Of a stretch of DNA of 64,000 nucleotides, positions 34,775 through 42,404 are shown in pieces; position 1 is the stretch's first letter; each line of letters opens with the position of its first letter. The notes beneath the pieces are model-generated. The model was not told the DNA's origin. It saw only the letters and a list, made by a program, of their open reading frames with translations, and searched no databases. The DNA lies in the NCBI GenBank assembly GCA_029262835.1, contig JAJCYQ010000060.1:62001-126000 (forward strand), given 5' to 3'. This DNA is from Bacteroidota bacterium. GTDB taxonomy: Bacteria > Bacteroidota > Rhodothermia > Rhodothermales > UBA10348. The position numbers were made by a program, and so were the translations under genes.

Positions 34775-35356
34775 ATGGAAGCTGAACAGGAGGAGATCAA
34801 CCTCGGGTCAAAAAAACGGGGTGTAGAAACCATGCTGCGGACGACGTACCGGGTTCATATGGACCTTACGTCCCTTGCGGATGCCAAGTCCAATATCATG
34901 ATATCCATCAACGGTATCATCATCTCCATCATCATTGCGTCGATTTCTCCAAAGATCGATACGAATCCGTGGCTTCTCATACCCACAAGCTTTCTGTTGG
35001 TTGGCTGCCTCATATCTATCGTCTATGCCGTGATTTCAGCGCGCCCAAGGGTTCCACGCGACCCGATATCGCTCGGAGAAATCCAGAAGAGACAGGGTAA
35101 TATCCTGTTTTTCGGTCACTATTCGCATCTCAGTGAGGAGGAGTTTGAAGAAGGCATGACGGAGGTCATGGTCGACAAGAACCTGATGTACCGCAACATG
35201 ATTCGGGATATCTACGGTCTCGGTTCTGTGCTTTCCAGGAAATTCGCGCTCCTCAGAGTCTCCTACAATATGTTCATGGTTGCGCTAATACTGGGCATTC
35301 TGAGTTTCATCGGTGTCTATGTCTGGGTCGTTTTCAACAGTGGTATGGTGTTATGA
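34775..35356 (+). CDS. Pycsar-effector-like (PycTM/DUF5706) membrane protein
   Basis: A 193-residue protein with three hydrophobic helices: IMISINGIIISIIIASIS (residues 42-58), WLLIPTSFLLVGCLISIVYAV (66-87) and a last one near the C-terminus (VALILGILSFIGVYVWVV). The segment TYRVHMDLTSLADAKSNIMIS before the first helix is the hallmark of DUF5706/PycTM, the membrane effector domain of Pycsar antiphage systems. No nucleotide cyclase or HD domain is attached or encoded nearby, so it is either an orphan effector or a housekeeping relative. It overlaps sixA as ATGA. A weak AAGG precedes the ATG. Confidence 0.82.
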   Translation: MEAEQEEINLGSKKRGVETMLRTTYRVHMDLTSLADAKSNIMISINGIIISIIIASISPKIDTNPWLLIPTSFLLVGCLISIVYAVISARPRVPRDPISLGEIQKRQGNILFFGHYSHLSEEEFEEGMTEVMVDKNLMYRNMIRDIYGLGSVLSRKFALLRVSYNMFMVALILGILSFIGVYVWVVFNSGMVL

Positions 35357-35859
35357 AGCGTCTCCTGCTGCTCAGGCATGGGAAGTCGGACTGGAACGCC
35401 GACTTTGAAACGGATCATGACAGGCCCATCAATGAGCGGGGCGTGAAGGCAGCCCGCGCCGTCGGACTGTTTCTCAAGGAACAGCGTGCATACAGGCCGG
35501 ATCGGTTGCTCTGCTCATCGGCCCGCCGGACCAGGGAGACGCTGGAACATGTTTTGTCTGAAACTGGATGGCAGGGCCAGCCAGTAGACTACCTGGATGC
35601 GTTGTACCTGGCGGCACCCACTGCGGCGCTTGCCGTATTGTCGGAGTATGTTTCGGACGTAGACGTGCTCATGATGGTGGGTCACCAACCCACGCTTTCG
35701 GGGTTGCTGTCTCTCCTTGTTGGGGGCGGTCAGGTCAATTACCCTACGGCAGCGCTTGCTATCGTGGATTTTGATCAACAGGTCGGGGCGCGTGGCAGGC
35801 TGCGCGGCCAGGGGCATCTTCAGGCGTTCATTCCTCCACGAATACTGCCTTCTTACTAG
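35353..35859 (+). CDS. sixA: Phosphohistidine phosphatase SixA
   Basis: A 168-residue histidine phosphatase-superfamily enzyme; SixA dephosphorylates His residues in phosphorelay or PTS proteins. The catalytic RHGKSDW is at residues 8-14, with NERG, SSARRTRETL and VGHQPTLSGLLSLL, where the second active-site His is GH. ATG 35353 overlaps the stop of the PycTM-like gene, so the two are translationally coupled. Its final 32 nt overlap the convergent GAF-domain gene. Confidence 0.92.
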   Translation: MKRLLLLRHGKSDWNADFETDHDRPINERGVKAARAVGLFLKEQRAYRPDRLLCSSARRTRETLEHVLSETGWQGQPVDYLDALYLAAPTAALAVLSEYVSDVDVLMMVGHQPTLSGLLSLLVGGGQVNYPTAALAIVDFDQQVGARGRLRGQGHLQAFIPPRILPSY

Positions 35860-38218
35860 CGTCCGGAAGCGAGAGGAACGGTCGCCCCGGGGCATCCTCG
35901 GCCACCCTGACACGGATGGCCCGCAGCCCGTTGGCGCCAGGCAGGTCTTCGATGTTCAGCAGTTCAGGCTCCTGTATGAAGTATCCGGATGCCGTCAGAT
36001 AGTCGATGTGGCGAAGGTATTCGTCCCGCTCCGTGTCGAGCGAGTATACGATGGCGACGTGTCCAGGCTGCGTCAGGCGTTCGTTGGAACCCGAAATATG
36101 CGCCTTGTCAATGCGCTTTTTGACAATCTCGTATCGGATATTATAGGCTCCGTCCACATCGAATTTTTTCTCGTCCTCCCGGAATCGGATGTCAAGCGGC
36201 TCGGACTGGACGAGAATGAGATGCGCAACGTCGAGCGGAACGGGCAGTGTTGATTTGAGCTGCGCGGCGACGGTTGCCATGCCAGCCGTTGTGGTAAGCT
36301 GCCACAGCCTCAGGTTCCGAAGGTCCATCTCGGTGAATCGACCGGACTCTACCAGATCCTTGCCCGCATAGATATTGTAATCCACACCATCGGTCTGGAA
36401 TCGCTCGAAAAAATGGGGCACCATATCCTGGGCCTCTTCATCCCGTTCCTCCAGATACGCGGCCATGGCCTCATTCAGCATGGAAACACTGTCTTCATAC
36501 TTTCGCCGCTCGTCGTAGACTATGCCGAGGGACGAGTCGAGCGCGCTCCGGTACTGATCGACGTGCCTGGCCACGTCCTCGGAGTACTCACTGAACTCAT
36601 CGAGCAGGGGCTCTACTTCCCGCTGGAGCAGACCAAGCAGAGAGGACTCATCGCCACTGGCCAGACCCTTCAGCACATACTCAATGTGTTTCGACAGCCG
36701 GTACCCGAGTTCGTCGAGCGACGGTCTTGGGCGAACGGTTGCTGCCGCGATTACGGTGGCGAGTGCCAGACCGAGTTGCTCTGCGAGGTCCGCCTGGATG
36801 GCACTCGCGCGCTGCGTCGACGAACCCCGGATGTCGCTCATGCCGTAAATGGGGAAAACGTTCTTGAATCTGATTTTGGGCCACTCGACCTCTCCATGGT
36901 TCTCAAGCGCTGTAATATGCTTGATGGCGGCCTTCCGGAATTTCCATTCAACGACCGGATGAATAGCCGTGTACTGTCTCTTGATGAGTGCCTGGATGCG
37001 GTCTTCCTGTTCGTCAAGGCTACGCTGCAGCGCTGTAGCGAAGATACGTGACAGTTCTACGAGCCAGATGGAATTCAGACTGTTCAAGTCCCCGACATGC
37101 GGAGAACCGATCTCCAGAAGGCCCACAATCTGGTCCTCAGTCTTAAGGGGCGAGACAAAAATATTACGGATGCCCTCGTCGTGCAGCCGCGATTCGAAAC
37201 CGGTGTTCCTGCCAGATTCTTCCAGGTCTTCGATGACGATACTTTCCCCATGCTGCATGACATCCCAGTAAAGCGACTCCTTCTCCCGCGAACAGGATGG
37301 CATGCCATGATTCAGCAGAATGCTTTTTCCCATGGCACGGGCTCCACCTACTTCACCGGATTCACACCGGTCGAGCGCGATAATTCCGAGTCGGATATCG
37401 GGAAGGCCGAGGAAGGAGCGGACGCGGCGTTGCAGGTGGTTGATACTGTCCTTCGTGAGCAGGGCGTTTTTCGCGAGCAGGTCCTGTTTCAGTCGCGAAA
37501 GGGCTTCTTCCCGGGTAACATCTGTCGCAGATATGCATGCCAGACCGCAGAAGACGAAACGTTCAGGCGGAAGGACGCGCACCCATCGATCGAGATCATT
37601 CGGATGAGCCAGAAGGTCCCGCAGGTCATTGGACGTGAGGACGGGCTTTTCACCGGTCAGTTCAACCTCGACGAAACGACTGTCGAGTTCCAGACGGTAG
37701 AAACGGGACGTATGCCCGTCCTTATCCCGGCGTTCGGTCACGAAGGTAACCGGCTTGTCGATATCCACGCCGTAATGAATCCGGAGAATTTCATAGTAGG
37801 CGGCGAGCGCCTTACCCCGGTGCATGTCCTGGTGGGAAACGCGTCCGCCAAGCAGACTGAAATTCGCCTCATGGTCCGCCAGCAGGTTGAGGTGCGTGAA
37901 CCTGTCCGTTGCTACGACCGGGTGCGGATCAAACGGCGCGGTAGCCGCTACCAACATATCCGACCACAGGGCCGGGGGGAAGACGGATGTCAGCAGGCTT
38001 CGGATTACATCCGTATGGGCCACGACAACTTCCGCGGACGGTGAATCCTGAATCAGCTCTGGCAGCGACTCGGCTTCGGCAAGGACCTGTCGTGCGACAC
38101 CCGCGCGCAGCGCGTCGCCCGATGCCGCCTCGGTACGCCAGAATTTTACAAGTGGCCGAAGCGACAAGCGGGACTCAAATGGGAAGTACGTTGTATCGTA
38201 GCCGTTTTCGATTTTCAT
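35828..38218 (-). CDS. Large GAF-domain protein
   Basis: A 796-residue cytosolic protein without signal peptide or obvious membrane helix. A GAF-like region lies at about residues 270-410: LGIIALDRCE, then GESIVIEDLEESGRN, IRNIFVSPLKTEDQIVGLLEIGSP and LSRIFATALQRSLDEQED. The N- and C-terminal parts, including a helical stretch around 440-580, match no domain I can name. I recall similar unannotated GAF proteins in Bacteroidota. No kinase, cyclase or DNA-binding output domain is visible, so the sensed ligand and output are unknown. It diverges from the PAS histidine kinase gene by 69 nt and could share its regulation. Confidence 0.82.
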   Translation of the reverse strand: MKIENGYDTTYFPFESRLSLRPLVKFWRTEAASGDALRAGVARQVLAEAESLPELIQDSPSAEVVVAHTDVIRSLLTSVFPPALWSDMLVAATAPFDPHPVVATDRFTHLNLLADHEANFSLLGGRVSHQDMHRGKALAAYYEILRIHYGVDIDKPVTFVTERRDKDGHTSRFYRLELDSRFVEVELTGEKPVLTSNDLRDLLAHPNDLDRWVRVLPPERFVFCGLACISATDVTREEALSRLKQDLLAKNALLTKDSINHLQRRVRSFLGLPDIRLGIIALDRCESGEVGGARAMGKSILLNHGMPSCSREKESLYWDVMQHGESIVIEDLEESGRNTGFESRLHDEGIRNIFVSPLKTEDQIVGLLEIGSPHVGDLNSLNSIWLVELSRIFATALQRSLDEQEDRIQALIKRQYTAIHPVVEWKFRKAAIKHITALENHGEVEWPKIRFKNVFPIYGMSDIRGSSTQRASAIQADLAEQLGLALATVIAAATVRPRPSLDELGYRLSKHIEYVLKGLASGDESSLLGLLQREVEPLLDEFSEYSEDVARHVDQYRSALDSSLGIVYDERRKYEDSVSMLNEAMAAYLEERDEEAQDMVPHFFERFQTDGVDYNIYAGKDLVESGRFTEMDLRNLRLWQLTTTAGMATVAAQLKSTLPVPLDVAHLILVQSEPLDIRFREDEKKFDVDGAYNIRYEIVKKRIDKAHISGSNERLTQPGHVAIVYSLDTERDEYLRHIDYLTASGYFIQEPELLNIEDLPGANGLRAIRVRVAEDAPGRPFLSLPDASKKAVFVEE

Positions 38219-38287
38219 GGAGTCCTGTTTGGTCCGTCTGTCAGTTGGGTTTCCTTTATATTCTCATTGTTACATCAGAACACCCAG

Positions 38288-39631
38288 ATGAGTGCGTGCA
38301 TGCATGTCCTGATTGTTGGTTTACATGAGTCCGCGGCGGATATATCCAGCCTGATCCGGTCACGGGGGCACACGGTAGTGACGCCCAACGGCACCCAGGC
38401 GACGTCGAACAGCGAAAACACGCTCGAGGCAGATTTGATTCTGATCGTTGGTACGGAGGGCCTGCAGGAAGTTGCTGCCGAAAATCACGAATACGCGAAG
38501 CAACGGGTATGCCTTGCGCATGCGTCGCTCTCCCATATGATTCATGACGCGATCCATATTGACGACCTTTTCAACGACCTGGATGATCTCAGTACGCGCC
38601 TTCCTTTCATCGAGCGCCGGGTAGGCATCCGCGACGTGAAGGAGAGGGAGTTCGCCGCTGTATTCCATTCCACGGTCGATGGCATCATCCTGATTGACGA
38701 AAGAGGCACGATTGAATCGGTGAACCGTTCAGCAGAAGAGATCTTTGGATACAGTGCGAAGGAGCTCAAAGGGACGAATGTATCGATCCTGATGCCCATG
38801 CCCCACAGCGAGCGTCATGACGACTATATCCGCAACTACCTTGAAACGGGAACGGCCAAAATCATCGGTATAGGGCGCGAGGTCACTGGGCGCCGAAAAA
38901 ACGGAGATCTGTTTCCGATGGATCTCGGAGTGTCGGAAATCAGAAAGCACGGAAAAATCTTCTTTACCGGCATCGTACGAGACATTTCAGAGCGTCGCCG
39001 CCTGGAACACGAGGTCCTGCGGATCTCTGAGCAGGAACGGCGGCGCATTGGGCAGGATCTGCATGATGGGCTCGGCCAGATGCTGACGGGTATCGGCCTG
39101 ATTTCACAGAACATGGGCCGTGAAATGCAGAAGGAAAACTCCCACTTCGAAGATCGGGCCAGGGAAATCACCGATCTCATACGGGAGGCCGACCAGATGG
39201 CGAGAAATCTGGCACATGGACTCGTCCAGGTCGAACTGGAGGGAGACGGCTTGACGGCAGCACTTCGGAATCTGTGCAAGAATGCCGAGCGTTTTTTCGA
39301 TGTCACGTGTACGCTCGAAATTGAGGGTGATATCCGCGTCGATGATAGCAGCGCCGCATCGAATATCTACAGGATCACCCAGGAAGCGATCAGTAACGCC
39401 GTTAAGCACGGGCAGGCAGGTGTGATCACCGTGTCGGCCACCGATCAGGACGGCGCTCTGGAAATCACGATCAATGACGACGGGATCGGTTTTCCGACTA
39501 CCTTGTCGGAAGATCGTGGGATGGGGGTCGATATCATGGGATACCGGGCTCGTGTCATCGGCGGCACGCTCACCATTGATCGCCGGCCCGAAGGAGGAAC
39601 CCGCGTTCGATGCGTACTTTCATCTGAATAA
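38288..39631 (+). CDS. PAS sensor histidine kinase with FixL-like haem pocket
   Basis: A 447-residue cytoplasmic kinase. The N-terminal 100 residues look like a degenerate receiver domain. The PAS domain (about 115-235) runs VDGIILIDERGTIESVNRSAEEIFGYS, then SERHDDYI and KIIGIGREVTGRRKNGDLFPM, then FFTGIVRDISERR. The spacing of His177 and Arg197 equals that of the haem-ligand His200 and oxygen-contact Arg220 of Bradyrhizobium FixL. A HisKA_3 domain follows with phospho-acceptor His259 in RRRIGQDLHDGLGQ, then an ATPase with TQEAISNAVKHG, NDDGIGF and GGTLTIDRRPEGGT. No membrane helices. TTG 38267 is open, but ATG 38288 is the better start; ATG 38300 is possible. The LuxR regulator follows after 14 nt. 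Confidence 0.9.
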   Translation: MSACMHVLIVGLHESAADISSLIRSRGHTVVTPNGTQATSNSENTLEADLILIVGTEGLQEVAAENHEYAKQRVCLAHASLSHMIHDAIHIDDLFNDLDDLSTRLPFIERRVGIRDVKEREFAAVFHSTVDGIILIDERGTIESVNRSAEEIFGYSAKELKGTNVSILMPMPHSERHDDYIRNYLETGTAKIIGIGREVTGRRKNGDLFPMDLGVSEIRKHGKIFFTGIVRDISERRRLEHEVLRISEQERRRIGQDLHDGLGQMLTGIGLISQNMGREMQKENSHFEDRAREITDLIREADQMARNLAHGLVQVELEGDGLTAALRNLCKNAERFFDVTCTLEIEGDIRVDDSSAASNIYRITQEAISNAVKHGQAGVITVSATDQDGALEITINDDGIGFPTTLSEDRGMGVDIMGYRARVIGGTLTIDRRPEGGTRVRCVLSSE

Positions 39632-39645
39632 CCCATACAGAAACC

Positions 39646-40296
39646 ATGATTCGAATCGTAGTAGTAGACGACCACCCGCTCATGAGGAAAGGCCTGGTCA
39701 TGTCGCTGGAGTCGGAATCGGACATCAACGTCGTGGGACAGGCTTCCAGTGCCGAAGAGGGAATGAGCCTTATTGAGCAACTGGGGCCGGATGTGGCAGC
39801 CATCGATATATCGTTGCCGGGCATGAGCGGTCTGGAACTGGTCAAGCAACTGCATGCCATTCGTCCGGAAGTACGCACGCTCGTGGTATCCAGGCATGAC
39901 GAATCGCTCTATGCCGAGCGCGCCATCCGGGCGGGAGCCCGGGGCTACGTGATGAAACTCGAGGCCGGTGAGGTGATTGTGAAGGCGGTCCGGCGCATCA
40001 TGAACGGCGGAATCTACGTCTCCGAAGAGATCAATGAGCGTCTGCTCCTGGGTATGGTTTCCGGGCATGAGGCGCTGGCACAATCACCACTTGACATCCT
40101 TTCTGACAGAGAACTGGAGGTTTTCGAGTTGACGGGTCGTGGACACGGCACACGGGATATCGCCGAAAGACTGCATCTCTCCGTAAAAACCGTGGAATCC
40201 TACCGGGCCCGGATTAAAGTGAAGCTCAATCTTGGCAGCGCTGCCGAGCTCATGCAGCATGCGGTACAGTGGGTTGAAGGAGAACGCTCTGACTGA
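39646..40296 (+). CDS. NarL/LuxR-type response regulator
   Basis: A 216-residue regulator and evident partner of the adjacent HisKA_3 kinase. The receiver domain has Asp8/Asp9 in VVVDDHP, phospho-acceptor Asp54 in AIDISLPGMSG, and Lys in GYVMKLEAGE. The C-terminal helix-turn-helix shows LSDRELEVFELTGRGHGTRDIAERLHLSVKTVESYRARIKVKL, the LuxR signature. It begins at ATG 39646, 14 nt after the kinase. Candidate targets are the TonB and nitroreductase genes downstream, but no binding site is recognisable to me. Confidence 0.95.
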   Translation: MIRIVVVDDHPLMRKGLVMSLESESDINVVGQASSAEEGMSLIEQLGPDVAAIDISLPGMSGLELVKQLHAIRPEVRTLVVSRHDESLYAERAIRAGARGYVMKLEAGEVIVKAVRRIMNGGIYVSEEINERLLLGMVSGHEALAQSPLDILSDRELEVFELTGRGHGTRDIAERLHLSVKTVESYRARIKVKLNLGSAAELMQHAVQWVEGERSD

Positions 40297-40432
40297 CGCA
40301 TTCCAGACGTAGGGTATTGCACTACACGGTGTTGTAGCCTTGCTCCCGCATACGTGTAAGACGTCTCCCGATGACCGCCGCTCGGGCGCCTCCGTACACT
40401 TCCGTTGAATCCAGCAAGATTCCAACGCATCC

Positions 40433-40444: not shown

Positions 40445-41182
40445 ATGAAGGCTACACATCAAACCCGATCCGACAAGGGACTACTCTACGAAAATCCACG
40501 CAGACCGAAGAAAAAGGAAGGTCTCGAACACAAGGGCCACTACAAGACGAAAATCATGGTAGGGTTTGTCGTCTCGCTGTCGCTCATGACGACGATGTTC
40601 CGGATGGATATTCGGCCGTCAGACGAGGGGTTGGACATCACCATGACATCACAGGAGACGGTGCAGATGGAGGAGATTGTCCAGACGGAGCAGGAAGTCA
40701 AGCCGCCGCCCCCGCCTCGGCCACCCGTCCCGGTCGCGGTACCCGATGACTACGTATTCGACGATGTGGAACTCGACCTCGATGCCATGCTCGACCTGGA
40801 CGAGGCCATCACGGACCTTCCTCCACCGCCTCCAACTCCGGCCATGGATGAGGAACCGGAGGAAGACGAAATGGAAATCTTCGTGGTGGTTGAGGAAATG
40901 CCGACCATCGTCGGCGGCAGCCAGGAGGTCTACAAATATCTGGAATATCCCGAAATCGCACGAAAGGCTGGTCTGGAGGGACTGGTGGTCATCCAGGTAG
41001 TTGTTACACCGGAGGGCACGCCTTCGCTACCAGAAGTAGCGCGAAGTGCAGGTCAGGTATTGGATGAAGCGGCTGTGCGCGCCGTCATGCAGCTCCGCTT
41101 CGAGCCCGGAATGCAACGTGGTCGTGCCGTACGTGTACGGATGGCCATCCCTATCCGATTCCGTCTGCGCGATGCCCAGTAG
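40445..41182 (+). CDS. TonB family energy transducer
   Basis: A 245-residue protein that carries energy from ExbB/ExbD to outer-membrane transporters. Residues 36-52 are a membrane helix (KIMVGFVVSLSLMTTMF). A periplasmic linker has a proline run after KPPPPPRPPVPV, then an acidic stretch and another proline cluster. The C-terminal TonB domain shows YPEIARKAGLEGLVVIQVVVTPEG and VRAVMQLRFEPGMQRGRAVRVRMAIPIRF. This start is set by a strong ribosome-binding site. No ExbB/D lies beside it; the pair at 17.4-18.5 kb might serve. A strong terminator follows. Confidence 0.92.
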   Translation: MKATHQTRSDKGLLYENPRRPKKKEGLEHKGHYKTKIMVGFVVSLSLMTTMFRMDIRPSDEGLDITMTSQETVQMEEIVQTEQEVKPPPPPRPPVPVAVPDDYVFDDVELDLDAMLDLDEAITDLPPPPPTPAMDEEPEEDEMEIFVVVEEMPTIVGGSQEVYKYLEYPEIARKAGLEGLVVIQVVVTPEGTPSLPEVARSAGQVLDEAAVRAVMQLRFEPGMQRGRAVRVRMAIPIRFRLRDAQ

Positions 41183-41297: not shown

Positions 41298-41393
41298 ATA
41301 CAGGGTCAGGGATTCCCCTACACGCGCTTGGTGCCGGTTCCGGTCAGTCCGGTTGCGTGGTATTTCCGTACTTCACTCCACTGAGCCAAGAAC

Positions 41394-42404
41394 ATGTTTG
41401 CATACACCACAGAACACCTCCGCATGCCGCTATCCTCGCCGCGAATCAGAGAGAGTCCGAGGGATGTGAAACCTGAAGGATTTCCCATGGGCGCGCCGAG
41501 GCATGGGCAACTCAAGTACGCCCTCCAGTACGCCGTTCTCGCGCCATCGACGCACAATTCACAGCCGTGGCTGTTCCGGGTGACAGACGAGTCGGTGTTC
41601 CTCTTCGCGGATCGCAGTCGCGGACTTCCGGCGATTGATCCGGAGGATCGCTGCATGTTGATGAGTTGTGGGGCGGCACTGCAGAATCTGACATACGCGC
41701 TCGATGCGCTCGGATTCAGATACCGGGTGTCCCGTTTTCCCGATCTGTCAGACCCTGATTTACTGGCCCGGGTTGATGTCAAGGCACGTAGCAGGCGAGA
41801 TATCGATACTTCTGCGCTGGAAAACATCATAGCGAGGAGAACGGTGGCTCCACAAAATGCCGTGTTGTCGCCCTCGGTAGAGGCCGTCGAAAATGTGCAG
41901 CGGGCTATTGAGAAAGGCGGAGCATCGATGACCCTCATTCGCCCCGATGATATTGATATCGTACTGCAAATCGTGGATGAGCACCTGGCAGATGCGCCAA
42001 TTCTGGCGAAGGAGGAGGCCGTCTGGCGCCACCCGAATCGGGCGCGCAGCCGGGACGGAATTCCAGGTGGAGCACAGCAACAGTCGTCGTCGATCTTCAT
42101 GGATCCAGCGGGTGCTGTCTTTGGCCTTCTGGCGACACATGGGGACAGGATGTCATCGTGGATGAGAGGGGGGGCGGCGCTCGAATGCGGCCTCATTGCT
42201 GCGACGCGAGAAGGGCTGGCCGTGTCATTGTCCTCCACGCCGCTCCATCTTTCTCATGTCAGAAAGCAGATTGGAGTGGCATTGTCTGTGGATGGTGCGC
42301 CGCAGATCTTTCTTCGTCTGGCAGGCAGCAACAGTTCACCGGGTCCTGCCACGCCTCGACGTCCGCTTGTCGACGTCATGATCCATCCCGGGTTTTCGGC
42401 GTAG
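41394..42404 (+). CDS. Acg-family FMN nitroreductase-like protein
   Basis: A 336-residue flavin-binding protein of the nitroreductase superfamily. LAPSTHNSQPWLFRV, FLFADRSRGLPAIDPEDRCMLMSCGAALQNLTYAL, and a late MRGGAALECGLIAATREGLAVS are the patterns of Acg/Rv3131-type proteins. Mycobacterial Acg proteins belong to the hypoxia/DosR response; some family members may sequester FMN rather than reduce nitro compounds. It lies after a terminator downstream of the PAS kinase, LuxR regulator and TonB. ATG 41394 is the longest start; ATG 41424 is possible. Confidence 0.88.
   Translation: MFAYTTEHLRMPLSSPRIRESPRDVKPEGFPMGAPRHGQLKYALQYAVLAPSTHNSQPWLFRVTDESVFLFADRSRGLPAIDPEDRCMLMSCGAALQNLTYALDALGFRYRVSRFPDLSDPDLLARVDVKARSRRDIDTSALENIIARRTVAPQNAVLSPSVEAVENVQRAIEKGGASMTLIRPDDIDIVLQIVDEHLADAPILAKEEAVWRHPNRARSRDGIPGGAQQQSSSIFMDPAGAVFGLLATHGDRMSSWMRGGAALECGLIAATREGLAVSLSSTPLHLSHVRKQIGVALSVDGAPQIFLRLAGSNSSPGPATPRRPLVDVMIHPGFSA

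Follow-up and report, generated by a model that had tools for sequence, protein, structure and literature searches.

A FixL-type PAS domain on a HisKA_3 kinase and a candidate palindromic operator suggest a low-oxygen response system in Rhodothermales

One histidine kinase of a Rhodothermales bacterium carries a PAS domain that resembles the oxygen sensor FixL, fused to a kinase core of a different family; which signal does it perceive, and which genes might it control? Translation of the window (the whole stretch of DNA that was analysed, 64,000 nucleotides in length) confirmed the open reading frame and the residue numbering of the first-pass annotation: His177 lies in SERHDDYI and Arg197 in IIGIGREV, 20 residues apart. 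From its N- to its C-terminus, the kinase contains one degenerate receiver, one FixL-type PAS domain, HisKA_3 and HATPase_c (Table 1). The last three all gave Pfam matches above cut-off (PAS, residues 121–233; HisKA_3, 250–314; HATPase_c, 359–444), and the evidence from sequence, predicted fold and conservation supports the proposed fusion of the PAS to a HisKA_3 kinase. The Pfam search gave no match for the N-terminal domain of the window kinase; the N-termini of relatives match Response_reg weakly. The AlphaFold model of this domain (pLDDT 83) matches mostly receiver domains, weakly in Foldseek (best E value 1e-4) and with a best Z-score of 11.1 in VIA-align. By eye, neither the phospho-acceptor Asp nor the acidic pair is present (ADLILIVG and LIVGL), in agreement with the degenerate receiver-like N-terminus described earlier. 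The region before the PAS differs among the relatives, where it can be GAF, extra PAS domains or others; Pfam found no GAF domain in the window kinase. Within its own genome the kinase has no second close match, the other matches being weak (∼30% identity over the PAS).

In a comparison with PDB sequences, the PAS is closest to BjFixL (E value 2e-29), followed by SmFixL (4e-26) and DosP (2e-15); among the matches listed, LOV chains are far weaker. The alignment to the FixL and DosP families that had been suggested as a check ranks FixL best, then DosP. It is gap-free through the motif for BjFixL, with 44% identity over 115 aligned residues. The AlphaFold model that includes the PAS, built with a 31-sequence alignment as input, has a mean pLDDT of 82.8, which drops to 63 in the block containing residues 191–200, around Arg197. 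VIA-align superposed residues 131–246 of the model onto residues 154–269 of 1dp6, with a Z-score of 19.8 and an rmsd of 1.4 Å over 115 residues; the offset of 23 places His177 on BjFixL His200 and Arg197 on Arg220. The residue equivalence proposed in the first-pass annotation therefore holds in the gapless alignment, in the superposition and in the invariance of both residues among the Rhodothermales orthologues.

In the sequence alignment, pocket residues Tyr180, Ile192, Met211 and Leu213 correspond to Tyr203, Ile215, Met234 and Leu236 of BjFixL and are kept; BjFixL Ile238 is replaced by Val215. The residues on the haem-propionate side are changed, BjFixL Arg206 to Asn183 and His214 to Lys191. 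In SmFixL, variants of Arg200, the residue equivalent to Arg206, retain haem and autoxidise in air (PMC10765370). The translation has no Cys in PAS residues 118–240, and both the NreB-type Fe–S reading and the LOV reading were rejected on this ground. His177 and Arg197 are invariant columns of the 31-sequence alignment. Across the PAS domains of the examined loci, 99 have both residues, 57 have neither and 10 have a single one; this tendency of the His and the Arg to be kept or lost together was counted in favour of the haem-PAS reading. The domain is a FixL-like PAS whose Fα histidine aligns with BjFixL His200, as in the FixL/DosP haem-PAS cluster, of which it is a candidate member. We infer that it binds haem and O2.

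An orthologue of the kinase is found in most genomes of 100 relatives, with 45–80% identity from the PAS to the HATPase. Both His and Arg are present in every Rhodothermales orthologue found in which the site is covered and, judged by sequence, the match to FixL is for this reason more than chance. A close orthologue was not found in several genomes of the same order, mainly of two families (f14 and f15). The same PAS–HisKA_3 fusion also occurs beyond the order, in Balneolia, Verrucomicrobia, Planctomycetota and one Burkholderiales MAG. The rarity that had been ascribed to haem-PAS kinases in this lineage was only partly right, as the PAS type is abundant (PMC10468136) and the fusion is order-wide and present in other phyla. 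In the same survey, FixL and DosP share one cluster (cluster 3) with more than 9,700 His-bearing members (PMC10468136). One orthologue (L017, genome G015) has an in-frame TAG within the kinase gene, which may be decaying there. Two Acidobacteriota-type loci (L107 and L111) encode related HisKA_3 kinases with the His kept and the Arg missing; at the position of the Arg, F or A follows PMGVG or PMGAG. These kinases are possibly variant haem-PAS proteins with another ligand preference.

Table 1. Features of the kinase locus in the window
Feature	Position	Strand	Basis or remark
SixA-like phosphohistidine phosphatase	35353..35859	+	TIGR00249 55.6 bits, below cut-off 74.5
796-aa protein with GAF, without family name	35828..38218	-	divergent from kinase; position conserved in about 7 loci
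Sensor histidine kinase, 447 aa	38288..39631	+	translation; alternative TTG start upstream at 38267
N-terminal degenerate receiver-like domain	38288..38632	+	AlphaFold and receiver matches
FixL-type PAS domain, residues 118–240	38639..39007	+	Pfam, sequence and fold comparison
His177 codon, equivalent of BjFixL His200 (proximal haem ligand)	38816..38818	+	
Arg197 codon, equivalent of BjFixL Arg220 (O2 contact)	38876..38878	+	
HisKA_3 dimerisation and phosphotransfer domain	39035..39229	+	Pfam, conservation
Phospho-acceptor His259 codon, in LHDGLGQ	39062..39064	+	
HATPase_c catalytic domain	39362..39619	+	Pfam
NarL-family response regulator (receiver and GerE HTH), presumed partner	39646..40296	+	profile matches, adjacency
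Candidate operator GTAGGGTATTGCACTAC, 11/12 specified positions	40309..40325		right after regulator, before TonB gene
TonB-like energy transducer	40445..41182	+	conserved next gene among genomes of the window's family
Candidate operator GTCAGGGATTCCCCTAC, 10/12 specified positions	41305..41321		about 70 bp before Acg-family gene
Acg-family FMN-binding oxidoreductase (Rv3131-type nitroreductase), candidate target	41394..42404	+	Pfam Nitroreductase

In nearly all orthologues, one NarL-family regulator adjoins the kinase on its 3′ side; with its HisKA_3 domain and this neighbour, the kinase belongs to the HPK7/HisKA_3 (NarL-type) group. The recognition helix of the regulator is almost invariant across Rhodothermales. 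The regulator scores 72 bits against the FixJ model (cut-off 255); the UvrY/GacA and MctR models score higher, these also being below cut-off. The FixL model NF041777 matches the kinase with 132.9 bits, in the PAS region only, the cut-off being 850. FixL orthology was rejected owing to the HisKA_3 kinase core, this low NF041777 score and a partner that is not FixJ.

The Acg gene of the window scores 196.9 bits against NF047509 (cut-off 199), and the homologues of relatives pass. Of 39 genomes, 23, largely of the window's own family, have an Acg gene at most 12 kb from the kinase; ccoN, for cbb3 oxidase, is found at such a distance in 13 of 36. The ccoN cases are spread over seven families and stand on either side of the kinase, so they do not reflect one inherited arrangement. 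Neighbour clustering identified universal stress proteins (USPs) at 25 loci; hemN is found near the kinase in relatives, accompanied by a site of the palindrome described below. The cbb3 oxidase and hemN are classic low-oxygen genes, and the gene context as a whole (cbb3 oxidase, Acg, USPs, hemN and a shared candidate operator) independently points to oxygen.

Several relatives (L008–L015) have an apparent operon of a folB-like gene, sixA, kinase, regulator and tonB, with sixA directly before the kinase; in the window, a divergent gene separates the two. The SixA-like phosphatase could act as a brake on the phosphorelay. In five Verrucomicrobia loci (L080, L081, L084, L085 and L113), one ADP-forming acetyl-CoA synthetase–GNAT fusion is encoded downstream of the kinase–regulator pair, a neighbour that would fit fermentation at low oxygen. 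At six loci (L086 and similar Verrucomicrobia), the gene directly upstream of the FixL-type kinase encodes an AraC-type regulator that has a PocR sensory domain.

Many of the oxygen-related neighbour genes in the relatives are preceded by a 19-bp palindrome, TGTAGGG-N5-CCCTACA. When 61 upstream regions of Acg or ccoN genes were searched for dyads without bias, GTAGGG-N5-CCCTAC was by far the top dyad, with exact copies in 10 regions, compared to at most two in the shuffles. Allowing up to two mismatches (at least 10 of the 12 positions), it is present in 41 of the 61 upstream regions, compared to 3% of shuffles, and its distance to the gene is mostly similar among the 41. The enrichment is clear for N5 only and slight for N4; the flanks extend the dyad to the full palindrome. 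The examined loci contain 26 strong sites, 25 of them in Rhodothermia, and 0–5 for each of five control dyads; the strong sites stand before the kinase, ccoN, TonB, a USP and hemN. Upstream of the kinase, the palindrome occurs in 11 of 51 regions (1.6% of shuffles). In Balneolia, it was found upstream of ccoN in none of 20 genomes, with the kinase present or not; thus, ccoN genes do not generally carry the palindrome, and the regulon does not extend to the whole class.

The location of the sites was also analysed at genome scale. In 22 kinase-bearing genomes, which partly overlap those of motif discovery, we counted 44 sites when up to one mismatch was allowed, and 19 of the control pattern; 22 of the 44 are located no more than 25 kb from the kinase, a distance at which fewer than one was expected. 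In one genome (G037), all four sites lie within 20 kb of the kinase. One genus (g12), in which Acg is far from the kinase, was held out, its Acg upstream regions being excluded from motif discovery; in four of its six genomes, a perfect site precedes the Acg match by 212–268 bp. Twenty genomes of the same order without the kinase have four sites (control 18), none of them perfect. This corresponds to 0.06 sites per Mb, sixfold rarer than the 0.39 per Mb of 44 kinase-bearing genomes. Several kinase-bearing genomes have zero sites at the strict threshold. Because the genomes are related, P values assuming independence are too small and only indicative.

The sites of the window's genome are weaker than those of its relatives. 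Besides the two listed in Table 1, a pair of imperfect sites at a distance of 42 bp from each other accompanies ccoN, which is located at another place in this genome; no palindrome is present upstream of the window's kinase. The scan of this genome is near background (10 sites, compared to 5 to 6 for the control), and with one or two mismatches the sites are mostly chance matches in coding regions, those of ccoN and the one in the window alone being convincing. The motif and its genomic association come directly from the genomes; as the predicted operator of the regulator, TGTAGGG-N5-CCCTACA would be the sequence that it binds.

Taken together, the FixL-style domain and the palindrome before low-oxygen genes of the relatives make it probable that this system serves the response of Rhodothermales to low oxygen. 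We consider it likely that the kinase and the regulator form a soluble haem-based O2-sensing two-component system, which controls hypoxia genes via the palindrome and combines a FixL sensor with a DosS/NreB-type chassis. The PAS would hold haem through His177, and Arg197 would touch the bound O2. By analogy to FixL, NreB and DosT, O2 on the haem would keep the HisKA_3 kinase off; FixL is inhibited by O2 (PMC8534201) and NreB is active without it (PMC4601167). When O2 falls, the kinase would autophosphorylate at His259 and pass the phosphate to the adjacent NarL-family regulator; both the direction of control and the phosphotransfer are presumed from these analogies. The phosphorylated regulator would then bind the palindrome and control low-oxygen genes. 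The proposed targets are the Acg-family oxidoreductase, cbb3 oxidase, USPs and hemN; in a part of the order, the kinase gene would be a further target. For the window, the TonB and Acg genes are the proposed targets. More tentatively, and with some doubt, the pair may be a main oxygen regulator of Rhodothermales, with the palindrome as operator, a regulon converged on the FixLJ and mycobacterial dormancy sets, and a SixA brake in the window's family.

Like FixL–FixJ of Bradyrhizobium and Sinorhizobium, the window system has the haem-PAS His/Arg pair, and cbb3 oxidase is among its associated genes. Different from FixL–FixJ, its kinase is HisKA_3 rather than HisKA, its partner is NarL/UvrY-like rather than FixJ, it lacks a tandem PAS-A and it is associated with Acg and USP genes. 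The window sensor is a PAS, whereas that of DosS/DosT is a haem-binding GAF; the DosR box also differs in sequence from TGTAGGG-N5-CCCTACA. With DosS/DosT–DosR of Mycobacterium, the proposed system shares a HisKA_3-type haem kinase, a NarL-family regulator and Acg nitroreductase and USP genes, the latter two making up the core of the DosR regulon in mycobacteria (PMC11876180). NreB–NreC of Staphylococcus is likewise a soluble PAS–HisKA_3 oxygen sensor with a NarL-family regulator; different from the Cys-free PAS of the window, NreB carries [4Fe–4S] on four Cys. The NreC site, TAGGG-N4-CCCTA, is almost the same as the Rhodothermales palindrome. NreC is described as binding a GC-rich palindrome (PMC5694512, PMC8139620). 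NmpRSTU of Myxococcus xanthus resembles the proposed system in haem-based sensing and in that cbb3 oxidase, USPs and HemN belong to its oxygen regulon (PMC11841059), but it uses a globin sensor and an NtrC-like regulator.

The link between the palindrome and the regulator rests on location and co-occurrence. The palindrome could be the site of a different low-oxygen regulator, of which the kinase and the regulator are merely co-regulated members, and the missing site upstream of the window's kinase would agree with that. However, the sites are concentrated at the kinase locus and fewer in genomes without it; moreover, the inverted repeat is NarL-family-like, and the recognition helix of the regulator hardly varies wherever the palindrome is present. 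We regard a different regulator as fairly unlikely.

The signal itself raises another alternative, namely that the PAS binds haem and responds to NO, CO or redox rather than O2, with the rest of the system unchanged. Several gases are ligands of haem-PAS and haem-GAF sensors, NO stress is a further link of the DosR-type genes Acg and USP (PMC2682197), and the change of Arg206 to Asn183 could make autoxidation more likely, as in the SmFixL Arg200 variants (PMC10765370). The invariance of the O2-contacting Arg197 and the presence of cbb3 oxidase and hemN among the targets argue against such a signal, which we judge unlikely. Still less probable is that the PAS keeps the FixL pattern haem-free, as a dimerisation domain or with another ligand. 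The fold diverges easily, given that ∼40% of the FixL-cluster PAS domains in the survey lack the His (PMC10468136), and some propionate contacts differ in the window PAS; yet the family shows no variation at the His, at the Arg or at the hydrophobic distal positions, the lack of Cys leaves neither an NreB-type cluster nor a LOV Cys, and the neighbourhood is oxygen-related.

The preferred reading, an O2-sensing haem-PAS kinase acting through the palindrome, is built of parts of known kinds, and its main addition is the prediction of the regulon, which is well supported. In the open-access literature we found no description of this combination or of an operator in Rhodothermales. The analysis offers a testable oxygen-sensing pathway that would lead from the sensor through the operator to the target genes; for Rhodothermales, we found none described. 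A FixL sensor module would sit on a kinase of the DosS/NreB type, with target genes that recall both systems, and the predicted operator makes the regulon experimentally checkable.
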